NCBI GenBank assembly: GCA_021203185.1
Contig: JAJQBR010000060.1
Location: 1-32,205, forward strand
Direction of reading: 5' to 3'
Length of the DNA stretch: 32,205 nt
Source of the DNA: Clostridiales bacterium
GTDB taxonomy: Bacteria; Bacillota; Clostridia; Oscillospirales; Oscillospiraceae
Part shown: positions 2,328-22,535 of the stretch, piece after piece
Position numbering within the stretch: position 1 is the stretch's first letter
How the letters are laid out: every line of letters starts with the position of its first letter
The notes under the pieces: generated by a model
What the model saw: only the letters and a program-made list of their open reading frames with translations
Told to the model about the DNA's origin: nothing
Databases searched by the model: none
Position numbers and translations under genes: made by a program

Positions 2328-4216
2328 TCAAATGACTTTCACTCTGGTATCCGGAGCCAACAGCTTGAACCGCTCCCACACGTTGATTTTGGACGGACTG
2401 CTGGCAAAGCAGGCGTCCTGGAACACGGCCCGTAGGGGCTGACGCTTGGCGATTTCCATGACCACGCTGTCCGGGATATTCCGGTCAAAGCAGGCAATCA
2501 GGTCGCCGTCATTGTAGGTATGGACAGTGTAGCCGTCAATCTTCTCGCTGTGATAAGGCATGGACAGGGGCAGCCCCCACTCTAACAGGCAGCCGAACAG
2601 CAAATCCAAATCGATGCGGTCAGGCTTGATGTTGGACTCCATGAGAGCCACCATCTGCTGGTCGTACTCATCGGCGCTGTAATACACGTCCTGCATATTA
2701 GTGTCGTCCAGCTTGAACACACGAAAACCAATATCCAGGTCTGTGGAAATCGAGGGGGGTTCTCCTTTTTGATTTTCTGTCCGGCACGGCGGATGCGCTC
2801 CTTGCCAATTTCGCAGATGTTGGCATAACCCGCCTTGTACGCCTCTGACTTTTCATCGCAGGGTTCAGGCAGCTGCACCATAATGAACTTACGATGGCCG
2901 CCGTCTCCAGCGTTAAGCTGCATGACAGCATGGGCAGTGGTGGCGGAGCCGGAGAAAAAATCAAGGATTATATCGTCTGAGCCGCAATCAGATAATTTTA
3001 TAAGCTCCATCATCAGCTTTTTGCTTTTAGGATTATCAAAAGGCAAATCAATTTCTTTGCCGATTTGTGACACTTCTATGTCTGTCCAGTTGCTTGTTCG
3101 TAATGTCGTATCAGCGGGAGCAACCCAGTGCTGAACGCCTCCGTTCTTTCCGGTCCCGTTTGGAATACGGCGAATAAAATCCGTTATTCCTGTCATGCTG
3201 GAGTATTCTTCAAGCGACATTTTGTCAGAATATTCGGTCTCATACTTTTTATAATTTGCGACAGCTATATCCGCTTTCTCCTTAGAGTTCCTCCACTGTC
3301 CGGTAGTCGGAGTAAAACCAAGAACATCATATCTCATTGTAGGTCTATCTGCGTTGCTCCAAAACACATCCCATCTCCCCTTTGAAGGAACACTGTCTTT
3401 TTTTACTCGTAGTGCTTTCATTAAGAAGGAGCGTGATTTTGAATACACAAGTACATACTCAAATCCGATATTCATGCTATATAGGCCGTTATCAGCAAAC
3501 TGAGAGTTGAGACTTTTGATCCTTCTACGGGTGAGGATTGTATTTCTAAAGTTGTCTGTGCCAAAAACCTCATCGCAGATTTTTCTCAAGCAGTTCAGTT
3601 CACCATCATCAATGCTTATGAAGATAACGCCATCCTCACACAACAGATTTCTTGCCAACAACAGTCGAGAATACATCATTGTACACCAGTCAGAGTGAAA
3701 CCGTCCATTGCTGTCCGTGTTCCTAAACAGCCGTTCTCCGGTCTCCTCATCGACCTGACCGGACTCCTCCGCATACTCTCCGGCAGACTGAGCAAAATCG
3801 TCCCGATAGATGAAATCATTGCCAGTGTTATAGGGCGGGTCAATGTAGATCATCTTCACCTTGCCCAGATAACTCTCCTGCAAGAGCTTCAGCACCTCCA
3901 GGTTGTCCCCTTCAATGTAGAGGTTTTCTGTGGTATCCCAATTCACGCTCTCCTCCGGGCAAGGGCGCAGGGTCTTGCGGATGGGTTTGTTGGCCTCTAC
4001 GATGGCGGCCTTTTTGCCCACCCAGGTAAATTCATAGGCTTCGTCGCCCTCGATCACGTCCCCGGACAGCATCTGCCGCAGCAGGTCAAAATTGATGGCC
4101 TTTTTCGGCCTGCCGTCTGCGCCAACGGTCTCCGTGACGCAGTTGGGGAACAGCGCACCGATGCGCTCCACGTTCTGGGCAGTCAGGTCGGGGGTTTTCA
4201 TGCGCATTTTATCCAT
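2328..4216 (-). CDS. mod: Type III restriction-modification DNA methyltransferase (Mod), split by an apparent -1 frameshift near 2754-2759 (ORFs 2582-4216 and 2328-2720)
   Basis: N-terminal ORF has DPPYNTGNDF (motif IV) and DFFSGSATTAHA (motif I). The C-terminal ORF (GFRVFKLDDTNMQDVYY...WERFKLLAPDTRVKVI) continues the same family in another frame. The frames join at GAG AAC CCC CC(-) TCG ATT TCC ACA GAC if one C is added to the C6 run. Confidence 0.9.
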
Positions 4217-7200
4217 CGATTTTATCCTCCTGTTTTATCTGTTTGATACGGCACTTTATCTGTTCTCCTCCCATCATTTCAGAAAGGGGATTATCTTTTA
4301 GCAAGTAGCTTGTAATATAGCCAACTTTCTCCAAACGTTCAACAAGCCGCATGTGATTTTCCGAATTTGAAAGAGATACTTCATGTCTTCTACTTCTATC
4401 CAGAAAATCATTGTACTCGCCGCCTAAATCGGTAAAACAACTTTCTAGGTCTTCCGCTTCCAGCATACAGAGATTCCTATACATCAAAGTTTCTTTGCCG
4501 CTGTCATCGAGGCAACCCCACGCTGCATGGAATATTTCCGCTGTTATATGCAACCCCAGGCTCTCTTGGTTCATTTGAGCTGCTATTTTGGGGGTCATGT
4601 ATTTTGAGGCATTCGCTCCAAACAAGTCTCTACGAATATCATCATCTAGTCTGGTATCTAAAAGCACCTGCTCAAATAATTCTGGAGTCATTTCAATTTC
4701 TGTGAGATTATCTATAAAATCCTTTTGGTTGAGCATGATAAATTCAATAGATAGCCTAACATCCACCTTGTATATTGATGAAAATCTGGATGCAGTGAAA
4801 TCAAAATAGCGATACTCGATCAAAATTTTTAGTGTTACCTCGTCCAATTCTTCAATCTCAAGGGGGAACTCCTCCATGCGAAGTACAGAGAGCGCCTTCC
4901 TTTTGACTTCTTCCGGGAAATCAGTTTTGATAAAATCCGCAATGAACTCATCGGCAACTGTATCTGTTGGTGTCACAATCAACTTATCAATATTGCTCGT
5001 GATATAATCCCTAAGCGAATTTTCAAGGCTCCACTCTTCCCAGAAGATTATCACATTCTCCCATGATATCTCTATTTTATTCTCCGAAAGTATGGCAATC
5101 CAAATTTTTTTGACGGTTTCGGAGTGTTGATCGACCAAATTCAGGCAACAATGTCCTAGATTATCAAGATAAAATTTTTCCTTCACTATTAAGTCAGTAC
5201 ATAGATCTGGATGGTCAATTAGCTGCTCTAGCAAAGCAAGAATGTCCTCAATACTATCACAGATGGATTTTTGAGCAAGAATGATTTCCCTTGTGTACCT
5301 GGCTATGTTTTTATGAACATCCTCAATCAAAGGTTTGTAGTTCAGGGAAACGACAGTGGAATAAGGCTGCTCCTTCAACTTGACAAGTGAATCCCTGTCA
5401 TTGAAAGCTACAATATTTTGCACCATTGACCAATTCAATTCATAGTAATGTCCCGTGAAAATAAAAGATTGCAGGTCATTGGATACACCGTCAAGTTTGA
5501 GACGACGGAAAAACAAATTCACTTCTTCAATAATCGCTTCCAAGTCAGCACATCCTGCTTTCTCCAATCGCTGAAGAATATCAGAGTGATCCTCGAAGAA
5601 TTTGACCAGACACCCATCTTCATTTTGTAGCGAGAGTTCTTTTGGAGTAAGTACACGAATTAAATTGACAAGATACTGAATCTGCCTACCATAAGTCAAC
5701 GTAGCGTCCAAAGTAATATGGAGCCACATCCGTTTCCATTGCCCCGCAAGCAGTTTAATGAACTGGTCTAAATGAGCTGTTTTGTCCACAAATTCATCTA
5801 TAAATTTCCAACTCGCTTCACTCTCATCGGCCAATTGCTTAATCAAAATGGCAAGCTTCTCTGAACCGGAGGCTTGAGAAAGCAGCTGATCTAATAGGTC
5901 AAAATTGTAAACTTCTTTCTGCTTAAATTCATAATTCTGCAAGCGCTGAATTATTACTTCAGTTTTGGTTAGCTTATAGTCGAAAGGCTTTGCTTCACGA
6001 TTCTTCACCGCAAGGATGAAGTTCATATCATCGTTCGTGATTGTAGCTCCTTTGAAATAATTGATATATGTACTGTATTTCTCATCAATATATCCTCTTC
6101 GCAACAGAAAGGCCAGGAACTTGTTTTGGCCGCTTACAATAGTACAATCAGGATACTCTGCAATCAATTCCCTTAACGTCAAGCTAGAAAGTCGGCGTTG
6201 TTTCTCCTTTAGCTGTTGGATTTCGGACTGTAGACCTTCTATACCCTTATCACTCAATTCTTTACGGGCTTCACATCTATCAATAAAGGGAGCCACAACG
6301 CTTTCATAATCCTCGACAGCGAGGGTCGCGCTACTACTGTTTGAAAACGCAATGTATGTTACCCCTTGATAATTCCGCTTGGTCAGCTCAGATAAATTGA
6401 AAGTGTCATCAAGTATTCTGGTTGAAAATAAGCTTAAATTATTCTGAGAACCGTTTCTGTTGACGGAAATAAATTTCGTAATGCCTTTTCCCGCTGCCAG
6501 GGTAACTAACATAGCTATTTTGATTTCCCTAACTGATTGCAATGCATCCGCATTAGCTATGCTGATTTTTCTAGTGATTTCATCAATTTCCGCTTGTAGA
6601 GAGTCTTTCTGAGTCTCTATAAATGTCGCCTTATCCAAAAACGCCTTTTTGATAATGCCCCTCTCTTTTTGAATGTCTGCAAAATCACTTGGGTATAGGT
6701 TCTTAAAGATAATCAAAGCAAGCATCTTTTCATCAGATAGGTCAAGCCCTTGCGCTTTTTTCAATACCCTTTTGTATACTACAAATTCATTATATATATT
6801 GAGAAGGATACGCATATCGGATATGTAAGGAGACACATCCAGCACAAAGTCATCGGAAATATCATGAATAATACCATGACTTTGAGCATTACGAAGGCGT
6901 TCAAGCAAGACTTCCCCAGAGTTTGTTGAATTGATTACTGGAATGACAGGGATAATAAAATCGAAAAATTTTGTGCGATCTTCCTCAGAAAACAAGTCAT
7001 CTTTTACTGCATAAACAAATACAATGGGCTTACGCTTGATGCTATCATCATTGTTAAGGAGGTTATTCAGCTCGCGGAGATGCACAAATATTTTTTTGTC
7101 ATCTAAGCGATCTAAATCCTCAAAAAATACAGTCCTATAACTGGTCGCCTCAAAAAAATACATGATTTCGTCTAAATTTTTATTAAATATAGAACGATCA

Positions 7201-7935: not shown

Positions 7936-8592
7936 CTAGCAACTCATTGCTTTCAGTTTTGTACGAAGTTGTTTCAATACCGCATTTATTTCCATCTGCT
8001 TGTTCAACTGCCGTTCCTTGCGAATCTTCGCCTGCAATGCTGCAATCTGTTTTTCTAACTGCGCCCGCTGTTCACTGCGCCGAACAGCTTCCTGCAAGGA
8101 TTCCTCCGTCTTACCGGATTGCAGCGCGTCTCCGGCCAGTTGCCGGACGAAGTTCTCATAGACTACATCCAGGTTCAGCCCATCTACTTTCAGGGGCAGT
8201 TCGCACTCTGCCATCCAGTCCGTGTGATAGTACCCACTGACCTTGAAGGCATCCGTTCCAGCGGCGGCTTCCTTATAGCCGATCCACGCCTGATACTGCT
8301 TATTATACTCCAAAAGGAACAGGATGTGGTAAGGAATTTCCTTGTCTATCTGCCGCAGAACGGCTTCGTCCAGTTTGGGGCCGTTCAGACGGACTTCAAA
8401 GACTTCTATCTCCGTGACATTCTTTCCGGGGGCCAGGTTCATGGTGGTGGCGGCGATTTTGTTCCGCCAGTAGATGATTTTAATGACGTCCACAAACTGC
8501 TTTTTCAGCGCAGGCGTGATGTTCAGATTCTCATAAAATTTTTGCTTTGGGATTCGACGGTTAAATTCTGTGGTTTTGGGAAGGTTCAGCAT
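7936..8592 (-). CDS. DUF4391-like protein
   Basis: MLNLPKTTEFNRRIPKQKFYENLNITPALKKQFVDVIKIIYWRNKIAATTMNLAPGKNVTEIEVFEVRL...YHILFLLEYNKQYQAWIGYKEA resembles DUF4391 proteins found next to helicase/R-M genes. RBS GGAG before ATG at 8592; C-terminal coiled coil. Confidence 0.72.
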   Translation of the reverse strand: MLNLPKTTEFNRRIPKQKFYENLNITPALKKQFVDVIKIIYWRNKIAATTMNLAPGKNVTEIEVFEVRLNGPKLDEAVLRQIDKEIPYHILFLLEYNKQYQAWIGYKEAAAGTDAFKVSGYYHTDWMAECELPLKVDGLNLDVVYENFVRQLAGDALQSGKTEESLQEAVRRSEQRAQLEKQIAALQAKIRKERQLNKQMEINAVLKQLRTKLKAMSC

Positions 8593-12754: not shown

Positions 12755-13162
12755 TTAAGGCTTGTAGATAAAATCCTTATACCCCGCAACGTACTTTCTG
12801 TAATCGACCTTAATCAGCGGGATCGCGTCCTTACCCGAATTGAAATGATCCGCCCATCGAAAAGCCACTGTACCCGCAAAACCGATAAAATTGACCGTTT
12901 GGTTCTTGTTCAGTGCCATAATGGAATCCGGTTTTCTTTCCCGCAGCGACACGCCGTCGCCGTAATGAAAATATTCATTTTCCGCGTCTTCAATAAACTT
13001 CTGTCGCGTTTTCTCATCTCCACAATAGACGTAGACCCTGCCGTTGAGCTTCGTGAGTGCTGTAAGTGTGCGGTCCTCCGCAGGAATACGACACTTCCTC
13101 GCCATGATAGCCCTCTTGACTTCTTTCGTAGCCTCTTTTGCTGCCTTCTTGATTTTGACCAT
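12755..13162 (-). CDS. Uncharacterised 135-aa protein downstream of SAM riboswitch
   Basis: MVKIKKAAKEATKEVKRAIMARKCRIPAEDRTLTALTKLNGRVYVYCGDEKTRQKFIEDAENEYF...YKDFIYKP. Start chosen at 13162 because of RBS AAAGGAG 9-10 nt upstream; the longer ORF (to 13273) overlaps the terminator and aptamer. Confidence 0.75.
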   Translation of the reverse strand: MVKIKKAAKEATKEVKRAIMARKCRIPAEDRTLTALTKLNGRVYVYCGDEKTRQKFIEDAENEYFHYGDGVSLRERKPDSIMALNKNQTVNFIGFAGTVAFRWADHFNSGKDAIPLIKVDYRKYVAGYKDFIYKP

Positions 13163-13200
13163 GATATTGCGCTCCTTTGCATTTTTTCCATAAAAAGCGC

Positions 13201-13232
13201 AAAGAAAAGCACCCATCGTCCTCGATGGGTGC
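13201..13232 (-). terminator. Riboswitch intrinsic terminator (expression platform)
   Basis: Minus strand GCACCCATCG-AGGA-CGATGGGTGC followed by TTTTCTTT: perfect 10-bp stem, tetraloop, U-tract. Confidence 0.85.
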
Positions 13233-13241
13233 CGAAATAAC

Positions 13242-13340
13242 ATTATAAACCCCATCGAATCAAGCTTTAGCACCTTACCAATCGGCAGGTTGCTGTGCGG
13301 TCAACGGGCTTGTCCCTCGCGCACTCTTTATGGTGATAAT
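13242..13340 (-). ncRNA. SAM-I (S-box family) riboswitch aptamer
   Basis: Minus strand ATTATCACCATAAAGAGTGCGCGAGGGACAAGCCCGTTGACCGCACAGCAACCTGCCGATTGGTAAGGTGCTAAAGCTTGATTCGATGGGGTTTATAAT. Matches the S-box core AGAG..GAGGGAC..GCCC..GA..AGCAACC..AAGGTGCTAA. P1 ATTAT/ATAAT, P2 GTGCG/CGCAC, P3 TGCC/GGTA. Confidence 0.88.
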
Positions 13341-13369
13341 AGAATATCATATCATTTGACGTTAGTCAA
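13341..13369 (-). promoter_or_regulatory. Promoter of riboswitch transcript
   Basis: Minus strand TTGACT (13364-13369)-17 nt-TATTCT (13341-13346), placed so that the transcript begins at about the 5' strand of P1. Confidence 0.75.
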
Positions 13370-14891: not shown

Positions 14892-16355
14892 CTATAACTT
14901 CTCAGCATCCCCGGCTTTGTGACCGCCGATTTGCTGATTCCTTTCCCGCATCGTTGCACCTTCCAGGAAGTTCGTCCCCTTCAACACGGCGTTCTTGCCG
15001 AACCGCTGCTTGAGTTTAACCATTGTGTCTTGTAGCCGCTTTTCTTTTTCCAATTTCGCCGTGTCAGTAAACAGGTCCAGCTGTACGATGCCGCTATCCT
15101 TCACGACCCGGTTTGCCGTAATGGTGATGCGCCGCACAGTCAGATTCCTGTCTGCGATTCGGTCAAACAGGCCCACGATTGCTTCCTGGAGCTGGCTCCC
15201 GATGTTCGTCGGACTGCCGCAGCGTGTGCTGCCATGAGAAGGACACGGAACCAATCGGCCATAGTGGTCAACCTTCGTTGGGCCTTTATAGTTGCCGCTG
15301 TCACAATTCTCCCGGTCATAGGAGATGTCTAATGTGAAAGAATCCGAGGCTATTCCCTTGCTGTTCAGTTGCAGCATAAGAGAATCCGTCATCTCCTGGA
15401 CGATGATCCTTGCCTTTTCATACGGATAGGGTTCAGAGAGCACCTGCCCTTCCGAGAGGCAGTTTGTCTCCGGCTTGTAGAATTTCACCAGCTCCATCGT
15501 AGTGGGTTCTACACCCCAGGCGTGGTCGATAAGGATCTCCGCGTCGATGCCGAATGTCTTGTAGAACCATTCCTGGTCATAGATGGACGCCCTTGCCAGC
15601 TGTCCCATCGTGAAAATGTAGTTCTTTTCGAGTTTTCGCGCCGTCCCATGACCGATGCGCCAGAAATCCGTGAGAGGCGTGTGATTCCACAGCAGCTTGC
15701 GATAAGAGGATTCGTCCAATTCGGCAATTCGCACCCCGTCTTTGTCCGCCGGGACGTGCTTGGCGACAATATCCATTGCAATCTTCGCCAGATAGAGATT
15801 CGTTCCAATGCCGCCTGTGGCGGTGATCCCTGTGGCGTATAGCACCTCTCGAATCAGCGTCATGCAAAGCTCGTGCGCCGTCATGTGATAGGTATTCAGA
15901 TAACCGGTGGCATCGATGAACACCTCATCAATGCTGTAGGCGAAAATGTCCTCCGGGGCGATATACTTCAGATAAATGGCATAAATCTGGGCTGAGACTT
16001 CCACATACCGGGCCATCCGGGGCGGAGCAACGATATAGGAGAGCTTCAGGCTTGGATCATTGGCAAGCCCTCTGGCATCAAAACATTCGGTTGTAAACCT
16101 GTGACCGGGGGCTTTGCGCAGGCGTTCCTCATTGATTTGCTTTACCTTCTGCATGACTTCAAAGAGCCTGGCGCGTCCCGGTATCCCGTAGGCTTTCAGG
16201 GAAGGAGAGACCGCAAGGCAGATGGTCTTGTCCGTTCGGCTCTGGTCCGCGACAACAAGATTTGTGGTCAGCGGGTCCAGGCGCCTGTCGGCGCACTCTG
16301 CGCTGGCGTAAAATGACTTCAAATCTATGGCTAAATAGACGTGTTGGTTTGCCAT
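14892..16355 (-). CDS. Y-family (UmuC/UvrX-like) DNA polymerase
   Basis: VYLAIDLKSFYASAECADRRLDPLTTNLVVAD (catalytic DLKSFYAS), EDIFAYSIDEVFIDAT (YSIDE motif), GIGTNLYLAKIAMDIVAK. Confidence 0.93.
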   Translation of the reverse strand: MANQHVYLAIDLKSFYASAECADRRLDPLTTNLVVADQSRTDKTICLAVSPSLKAYGIPGRARLFEVMQKVKQINEERLRKAPGHRFTTECFDARGLANDPSLKLSYIVAPPRMARYVEVSAQIYAIYLKYIAPEDIFAYSIDEVFIDATGYLNTYHMTAHELCMTLIREVLYATGITATGGIGTNLYLAKIAMDIVAKHVPADKDGVRIAELDESSYRKLLWNHTPLTDFWRIGHGTARKLEKNYIFTMGQLARASIYDQEWFYKTFGIDAEILIDHAWGVEPTTMELVKFYKPETNCLSEGQVLSEPYPYEKARIIVQEMTDSLMLQLNSKGIASDSFTLDISYDRENCDSGNYKGPTKVDHYGRLVPCPSHGSTRCGSPTNIGSQLQEAIVGLFDRIADRNLTVRRITITANRVVKDSGIVQLDLFTDTAKLEKEKRLQDTMVKLKQRFGKNAVLKGTNFLEGATMRERNQQIGGHKAGDAEKL

Positions 16356-19908: not shown

Positions 19909-20261
19909 TTACTTGTGCCAAACAAAAAAGGCACAACCTGCACCTTTCCAACTGAAAATCAGTACACAGGTACGTTCCTGCTGTGACGAGCCACATCAGC
20001 GGTACGCCGTGACCCGGATTCTATCCGGCAGCGATTCCTACCGTCTGTGACAGTCGCTTCGCAACCGACTCGGCCATGACCCGCAGCAGGGATAATGATA
20101 CTTCTGCCCAGCCACAGCCCTGGCCCGACAGCCGGGATCAAGCAATGGGGGCAGCTCAATGAGGAGGGGTGAAGCCCATGGAGCTGAGCGAACAGCCGCC
20201 TGTGTTACTCCCGCAGGCTCTGGGATGTCGAGGACGAATAAGAGTTCATCATAAAAATTGG

Positions 20262-22106: not shown

Positions 22107-22535
22107 ATGAGAGAAAATTGGGTATACCGCCGCGGCGACGTGTACCTGGCCGACTGCGGCAAATGGCGCGGCTCCATACAGGGCGGCATCCGCCCTGTTG
22201 TGGTCATGCAGAACAACACCGGCAACCGGCACAGCCCCACGCTCAGTGTGGTCAAGCTGACCTCGAAGGTGAACAAGAAACCCAACCAGCCCACCCACTA
22301 TATGCTGGAAAATATCAGGGGTATCCCATACCCCTCGCAGGTTTTGGCAGAGCAGCCGGATACCATCAACAAGTCGGATATTATCCGCTATATGGCGCAT
22401 CTGTCGGAGAAACATATGGCGGAGATCAGCCGGTGTCTGGAGGTGGAACTGGGGCTGGATACGGAACACGAACCGCCTTTCTCCCAGTGCGTGAGAAACT
22501 GCGCCCATCAGACAGAGAAGCCTGACAGTGTATAA
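22107..22535 (+). CDS. PemK/MazF-family toxin-like protein
   Basis: MRENWVYRRGDVYLADCGKWRGSIQGGIRPVVVMQNNTGNRHSPTLSVVKLTSK: MazF-fold RGDVYLAD..GSIQGGIRPVVVMQN signature. Confidence 0.87.
   Translation: MRENWVYRRGDVYLADCGKWRGSIQGGIRPVVVMQNNTGNRHSPTLSVVKLTSKVNKKPNQPTHYMLENIRGIPYPSQVLAEQPDTINKSDIIRYMAHLSEKHMAEISRCLEVELGLDTEHEPPFSQCVRNCAHQTEKPDSV

Follow-up and report, generated by a model that had tools for sequence, protein, structure and literature searches.

The window analysed here is the whole 32,205-nucleotide (nt) stretch of contig JAJQBR010000060.1 (assembly GCA_021203185.1), from an Oscillospiraceae member of the Clostridia. Its minus strand carries, in this order, a promoter, an S-adenosylmethionine riboswitch of the SAM-I (S-box) class, a terminator, a candidate anti-Shine-Dalgarno (anti-SD) hairpin and a gene for a protein of 135 amino acids (aa). 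We consider it probable that these parts form one horizontally mobile cassette of phages and their hosts, which would be gated by the depletion of S-adenosylmethionine (SAM). The reading is carried by the riboswitch itself, its fixed association with the small gene, the covariation of both of its regulatory pairings, the copies in phages and chromosomes, and the independence of the cassette from the restriction-modification (R-M) operon that follows it in the window.

The riboswitch and the small gene

The features of the cassette are listed in Table 1. RF00162 matched positions 13336-13249(-) over the complete model with 56.5 bits (gathering score 44.4, E 1.1e-10, cmscan); no match to SAM-IV or SAM-I/IV was listed by cmscan, and RF00162 was retained as the best of its clan. 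The ligand-contact residues A6, U7, C44-A46, U57 and G58 (T. tengcongensis numbering) were all found in the window aptamer, together with the paired regions P1 (CCAU, 13333-13330, with AUGG, 13255-13252), P2 (GUGCG/CGCAC) and a short P3, and with the pseudoknot between L2 and J3/4 (CAAG, 13312-13309, with CUUG, 13264-13261). Further downstream, TCGATGGG (13258-13251) is the exact complement of CCCATCGA (13229-13222), and terminators occur at the same place in 45 of the 48 homologous leaders compared, being missing from L038, L040 and L041 (Ruminococcus); both observations fit a mutually exclusive antiterminator and terminator. Shuffled controls averaged 2.0 promoter-like and 0.7 terminator-like sites per kb, so that the evidence for these two elements lies in their position and conservation and not in the scan. 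A similar promoter was present upstream of the riboswitch in most homologous leaders. An earlier, sequence-only reading of the window had described the promoter TTGACT-17-TATTCT, the SAM-I aptamer with P2 GTGCG/CGCAC and a very short P3, the exclusive antiterminator and terminator, and an uncharacterised gene behind them, and all of these were recovered where it had placed them. The absence of P4, the second hairpin (13202-13172) and its possible pairing with the aptamer 5' strand (13335-13319) were not part of that reading.

The leader was conserved among the 48 sequences with covariation in P1, in the L2-J3/4 pseudoknot and in the pair 43-59. P1 occurred as CCAT/ATGG, CCTAT/ATAGG or CTATC/GATAG, the pair 43-59 as G-C, C-G or A/C, and compensatory changes of the pseudoknot were seen in L012 (UGUC/GGCA) and L055 (CAGAC/GUCUG). 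The residues A6 and U7, for which the search did not select, were invariant in all 48 leaders; the search pattern itself partly required the other ligand-contact residues (C44-A46, U57 and G58). In 44 leaders, J3/4 and the P1 3' strand were 10-11 nt apart, which leaves no room for P4, and P4 was absent in nearly all 48, including the window with its gap of about 11 nt; a P4-like hairpin is carried by L038. The one other S-box of the source genome (84.6 bits, 5' of metK) has a normal P4. The window riboswitch was therefore classed as a variant of SAM-I and not as a standard member. A changed ligand specificity was considered for the weak-scoring leader L012 and rejected, because its pseudoknot and pair 43-59 covary and its contact residues are kept, as in a diverged SAM-I switch.

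Homologues of the small protein were present in 10 of the 32 genomes of the source genus. All ten contained a second S-box besides that of metK, compared with none of the 22 genomes without the gene (Fisher test, 1.6e-8), which had the metK S-box only or no S-box. Every other S-box in the genus belonged to metK, and in the ten genomes the S-box before the small gene scored lower than the metK one. When the search was widened, 30 loci were obtained from GTDB genomes of Oscillospiraceae, Lachnospiraceae and unplaced Clostridia, with homologues 30-94% identical. RF00162 exceeded its gathering score directly 5' of 25 of these 30 chromosomal homologues, and two further weak switches were found, one at L036 (leader L012, 30.1 bits) and one at L037 that was recognisable by eye. 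The gene was rare in an even sample of the class (6 of 392 genomes), and the four new members from this sample all had the switch, three of them (L053, L055 and L057) above the gathering score. The chromosomal neighbours were mixed, with a UmuC-type polymerase, glycoside hydrolases, a tRNA synthetase, transport and other genes, and a plasmid collection gave no match. Judged by these comparisons of sequence, the riboswitch belongs to the 135-aa gene and not to the defence operon.

Three observations concern individual copies. Within the source genus, the gene for the UmuC-type DNA polymerase is a recurrent neighbour on varying sides of the cassette (14892-16355 in the window; also L022, L023, L025 and L026). 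In the sister genome G027 (L022/L004) the small gene carries a frameshift close to its N-terminus, and the riboswitch is intact. At L039 (Oliverpabstia intestinalis, about 5860-5990) the aptamer has lost its 5' half or has had it replaced, and the 3' half, the terminator and the gene remain.

The 135-aa protein had no match worth noting in Pfam, NCBIfam, PADLOC or PHROGs and no relative in the PDB by sequence. AlphaFold gave confident models, with predicted local distance difference test scores (pLDDT) of 90.5 (the 135-aa protein) and 88.3, and the modelled order of secondary structure was beta-alpha-beta-beta-alpha-beta. With these models, Foldseek returned nothing at E 0.001 or better in the PDB or BFVD; the weak BFVD matches were small uncharacterised phage proteins, and the weak PDB matches had low TM-scores. 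The conserved residues (R31, Y44, F56, A60, E63, G94, G97, D120, K123, Y124 and G127) formed no obvious catalytic set, which makes binding a likelier role than catalysis.

Table 1. Parts of the cassette, with positions counted in the window
Feature	Position	Strand	Details and basis
Promoter	13341..13369	-	-35 TTGACT 13369-13364, 17-nt spacer, extended -10 TG-A-TATTCT 13346-13341; sequence and pattern scan
SAM-I (S-box) aptamer without P4	13249..13336	-	RF00162 match; covariation in relatives
P1 3' strand, also antiterminator strand, TCGATGGG	13251..13258	-	sequence
Intrinsic terminator hairpin	13208..13233	-	11 pairs, loop of 4, then TTTTCTTT; scan
Anti-SD element TTGCGCTTTTTATGGA	13187..13202	-	alternative partners: SD region or aptamer 5' strand CACCATAAAGAGTGCGC (13335-13319)
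SD sequence AAGGAG	13172..13177	-	inside anti-SD hairpin (13202-13172); sequence
Small protein of 135 aa, the regulated gene	12755..13162	-	no family match; AlphaFold model

The anti-Shine-Dalgarno element

Between the terminator and the start codon, almost all leaders carried an element of the type GCGCUCUUUAUAGGAA. Its first half complements the Shine-Dalgarno (SD) region, and the whole element complements the aptamer 5' strand (CCUAUAAAGAGUGCG). Pairing energies were calculated with standard nearest-neighbour models without pseudoknots or ligand. In the window, the element and the 5' strand form 14 bp with -19.5 kcal/mol (z -4.4 against dinucleotide shuffles). The same pairing had a median z of -3.2 over the 48 leaders, with 36 of them below -2, compared with a median of +0.55 in the 22 metK leaders of the genus that served as control. 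Swap tests, in which pairs from one leader were compared with pairs exchanged between leaders, were carried out on 19 leaders less than 72% identical. The pairing of the anti-SD element with the SD was stronger in self pairs than in swapped pairs (-11.2 vs -8.0, p 5e-5), as was that of the 5' strand with the downstream region, both over 17 nt (-15.3 vs -13.1, p 5e-5) and over the 9 nt after the T-run (p 2e-4). The figures for the 5' strand were obtained with no prior choice of the element, which avoids the bias of choosing it by its own 5' strand.

The predicted accessibility of the SD averaged 0.40 in the whole leader and 0.14 with the aptamer set aside; with the aptamer it went up in 31 leaders and down in 2. 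The three leaders without a terminator (L038, L040 and L041) kept the anti-SD stage, which suggests that the element can work alone. It was also retained before unrelated small proteins at L059, L062, L064, L067 and L076 and thus belongs to the control module. These pairings predict a second, translational off-switch through masking of the SD, and together with the terminator they point to a dual control of transcription and translation in two steps.

SAM is presumed to be the ligand, and an OFF logic, with the gene on when SAM is low, is supported by the choice of strand: in 45 of the 50 leaders having both candidates, the P1 5' strand paired no worse with the proximal 3' strand than with the distal one. 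In the proposed mechanism, plentiful SAM would bind the P4-less aptamer, and P1 would close with the proximal 3' strand. The antiterminator could then not form and transcription would stop at the terminator, and in any transcript that read through, the SD would stay buried by the anti-SD element. When SAM is low, the P1 3' strand would be used for the antiterminator. The aptamer 5' strand (P1/J1-2/P2), now free, could bind the anti-SD element and uncover the SD, so that the small protein would be made.

Phage copies and alternative roles

Ruminococcus phage NatCom_28274 (PV036439) carries the gene (31% identical) behind an S-box of 59.9 bits. This cassette has its own promoter and runs against the direction of nearly all surrounding genes, as is often seen in phage accessory genes. 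A protein search of IMG/VR gave four contigs, with the switch directly 5' of the gene in three. A search with the riboswitch pattern gave 30 contigs, of which 23 had, 158-173 nt downstream, a member of the family (only a distant one in L063 and L071) and five had other small proteins behind the switch (L059, L062, L064, L067 and L076). Overall, the switch was found on about 35 viral contigs; the IMG/VR contigs are computational predictions, and Rfam confirmed the riboswitch in those tested. Viral and chromosomal members interleaved in the protein tree with 4-6 label changes, which indicates that the gene has moved repeatedly between phages and chromosomes.

Several viral contigs departed from this layout. 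The same riboswitch and anti-SD leader stood before no fewer than four further small phage proteins, which are unrelated and have no known family. At L083 (8306-8390, -), a SAM-I riboswitch of a viral contig lies 5' of a 732-aa protein whose N-terminus is highly acidic, and at L085 there was no open reading frame (ORF) of at least 60 aa near the riboswitch. In L020, a 167-kb phage, the riboswitch (6928-7012) lies about 1 kb upstream of the small gene (7971-8273), with other DNA between them.

What the protein does is the most speculative part of our proposal; it might be an accessory of phage-host conflict, similar to a 'moron', for times of scarce SAM such as superinfection or heavy DNA methylation. 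Tentatively, the phage-borne P4-less SAM-I module might serve more generally as an alarm for infection or starvation, in which falling SAM releases small proteins from several families, unrelated to each other, that take part in phage-host or phage-phage conflict.

SAM-I regulons normally consist of methionine genes, and all other S-boxes in the genus precede metK. The small protein could accordingly be an unrecognised factor of methionine or SAM metabolism, for example a regulator that spares or restores SAM, and merely have been acquired by phages. We regard this as rather unlikely in view of the patchy distribution (six genomes in the class sample), the lack of methionine genes among the recurring neighbours, the carriage by phages with an own promoter opposed to the neighbouring genes, and the use of the same leader before unrelated small phage proteins.

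The presence of the cassette in phages and defence islands would also fit an effector of defence or superinfection exclusion that is released when an incoming phage depletes SAM by a SAM lyase or by takeover, and phage enzymes that destroy SAM are known (PMC7877911, PMC8406200). No toxin-like or known effector fold was found for the protein, however, and we hold this role to be unlikely. An equally improbable role is to help the phage at low SAM in connection with the methylation of its DNA, for example as an anti-restriction factor for when methylation fails. In 18 contigs of the PV036439 lineage, the cassette is convergent with and abuts a large protein that matches PHROG families of DNA methyltransferases, and a second methyltransferase (N6_N4_Mtase) comes next in most contigs that are long enough; the switch of the unrelated small protein at L076 also adjoins two putative 5-methylcytosine methyltransferases, assigned by motif only. 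Yet the 18 contigs belong to a single lineage (terminase 73-100% identical where present), and the association therefore represents one or two events, and the chromosomal copies mostly lack methyltransferase neighbours.

In the window the cassette is followed by genes for an SNF2 helicase, two DUF4391 proteins, a YobI/Tmn-like ATPase, and the type III Mod and Res subunits. The sequence-only reading had proposed that the locus senses SAM depletion, for example by phages, or that read-through from the riboswitch tunes this operon to the SAM supply. Between 12755 and 12653, the scan of the minus strand gave no site resembling a terminator; at L040, from a distant Ruminococcus, the cassette is followed on the same strand by homologues of SNF2, DUF4391 and Mod (65, 39 and 53%), and the sister genome G027 has another SAM-dependent defence, bacteriophage exclusion (BREX), at the same place. 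Read-through into the operon is thus possible, but it is not the rule. The SNF2 gene was found in 14 other loci among 297 genomes of the order, none with an S-box or the small gene within 1.5 kb, and of the cassette's chromosomal loci, about 31 in number, only 2 have these operon genes next to it. The sister genome shares 95% DNA identity with the window from 16465 to 12653, ending at the start codon of the helicase, and continues past this junction with BrxA/BrxB and BrxC of BREX and then a prophage with serine recombinases. Because the identity stops there, the defence operon is an exchangeable block, and we read the junction as a hotspot that collects defence genes and not as one system. 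Control of the R-M operon as a rule was rejected on the SNF2 loci and this junction; tuning of the operon to SAM is very improbable, and riboswitch control of restriction is unlikely. A sensor of SAM depletion remains plausible, the link to phage biology that this idea implied is real, and the riboswitch is conserved in the homologous loci; a conserved linkage to defence failed, as most copies lie beside unrelated genes.

Some further features of the window were noted. The type III Res subunit (ResIII, 1-2314, -) runs off its left end. Close to its 3' end, the Mod gene (2328-4216, -) has its frame interrupted at six consecutive C, and ORFs 2582-4216 and 2328-2720 correspond to successive parts of a single MTase_III model; the cause is either phase variation or an assembly error. 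An Rfam pemK RNA motif (RF02913, 38.1 bits) lies at 20092-20181(+), 5' of a ParB-like ORF, and a short PemK-like ORF at 22107-22535.

A SAM-ON switch, in which P1 uses the distal strand (the terminator 3' arm) and SAM blocks termination, is disfavoured and very unlikely: cmscan places P1 on that strand in a few leaders, such as L017, but the strand cannot pair in L012, L014, L020, L041 and L046, and the proximal strand has the fixed spacing of 10-11 nt and pairs as well or better.

Several points weigh against the reading as a mobile, SAM-depletion-gated cassette. All of its support is computational, with SAM binding and expression deduced from sequence, and most of the sequences come from metagenome assemblies. 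The distal strand could close P1 to give ON logic, and five leaders pair slightly better that way, some of them misparsed. At L033, L039 and L043 the riboswitch of the homologue is gone, wholly or by half, the pairing with the 5' strand is missing from L046 and L047, and the predicted gain in SD accessibility is small in the window itself (0.11 vs 0.05). The function proposed for the protein is drawn from its context only.

Comparison with known systems

SAM riboswitches are textbook regulators of methionine metabolism. That one SAM-I subclass serves a mobile family of small proteins in Clostridia of the gut and in their phages suggests that the SAM level is read as a signal in phage-host conflict. 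The experimental handle is simple, since both RNA and ligand are defined and the protein has 100 residues and a fold that is apparently unclassified. Our search of the literature found no report of SAM-I riboswitches in phages, which is weak evidence of absence since most subscription papers lay outside it, and the use of a SAM switch for purposes other than methionine metabolism, and by phages, seems to be undescribed so far. The methylophage Melnitz carries a glutamine riboswitch that controls tmRNA (transfer-messenger RNA), and riboswitches were called rare in phages (PMC9004378); both it and the cassette place a metabolite riboswitch in phage genomes, with different ligand classes. The type III R-M system with SNF2, DUF4391 and YobI, the immediate neighbour of the cassette in the window, occurs elsewhere without this riboswitch.

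The cassette switch shares with SAM-I (RF00162) the core residues, J1/2 AAGA, the kink-turn type P2, the L2-J3/4 pseudoknot and a terminator and antiterminator with OFF logic, as predicted for the cassette. It differs in lacking P4, in serving a small protein of phages and islands, and in adding a predicted anti-SD stage for which the aptamer 5' strand is the alternative partner. SAM-IV and SAM-I/IV have the same ligand-binding core, and SAM-IV also lacks P4 (PMC6890682), but SAM-IV adds P5 and the pseudoknot PK-2. Dual platforms that combine termination with SD masking are known (Barrick and Breaker, 2007, PMC2258182), whereas the cassette has a separate hairpin after the terminator. The SAM-I riboswitch of the Xanthomonas met operon controls an anti-SD hairpin, but it acts on met genes mainly by translation, within a tRNA-sensing platform and with no phage link (PMC7270179). 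The two-stage design of the cassette is different from both of these designs, and a platform of two steps, with one strand of the aptamer predicted to unmask the SD as well, is a testable addition to the known riboswitch designs.
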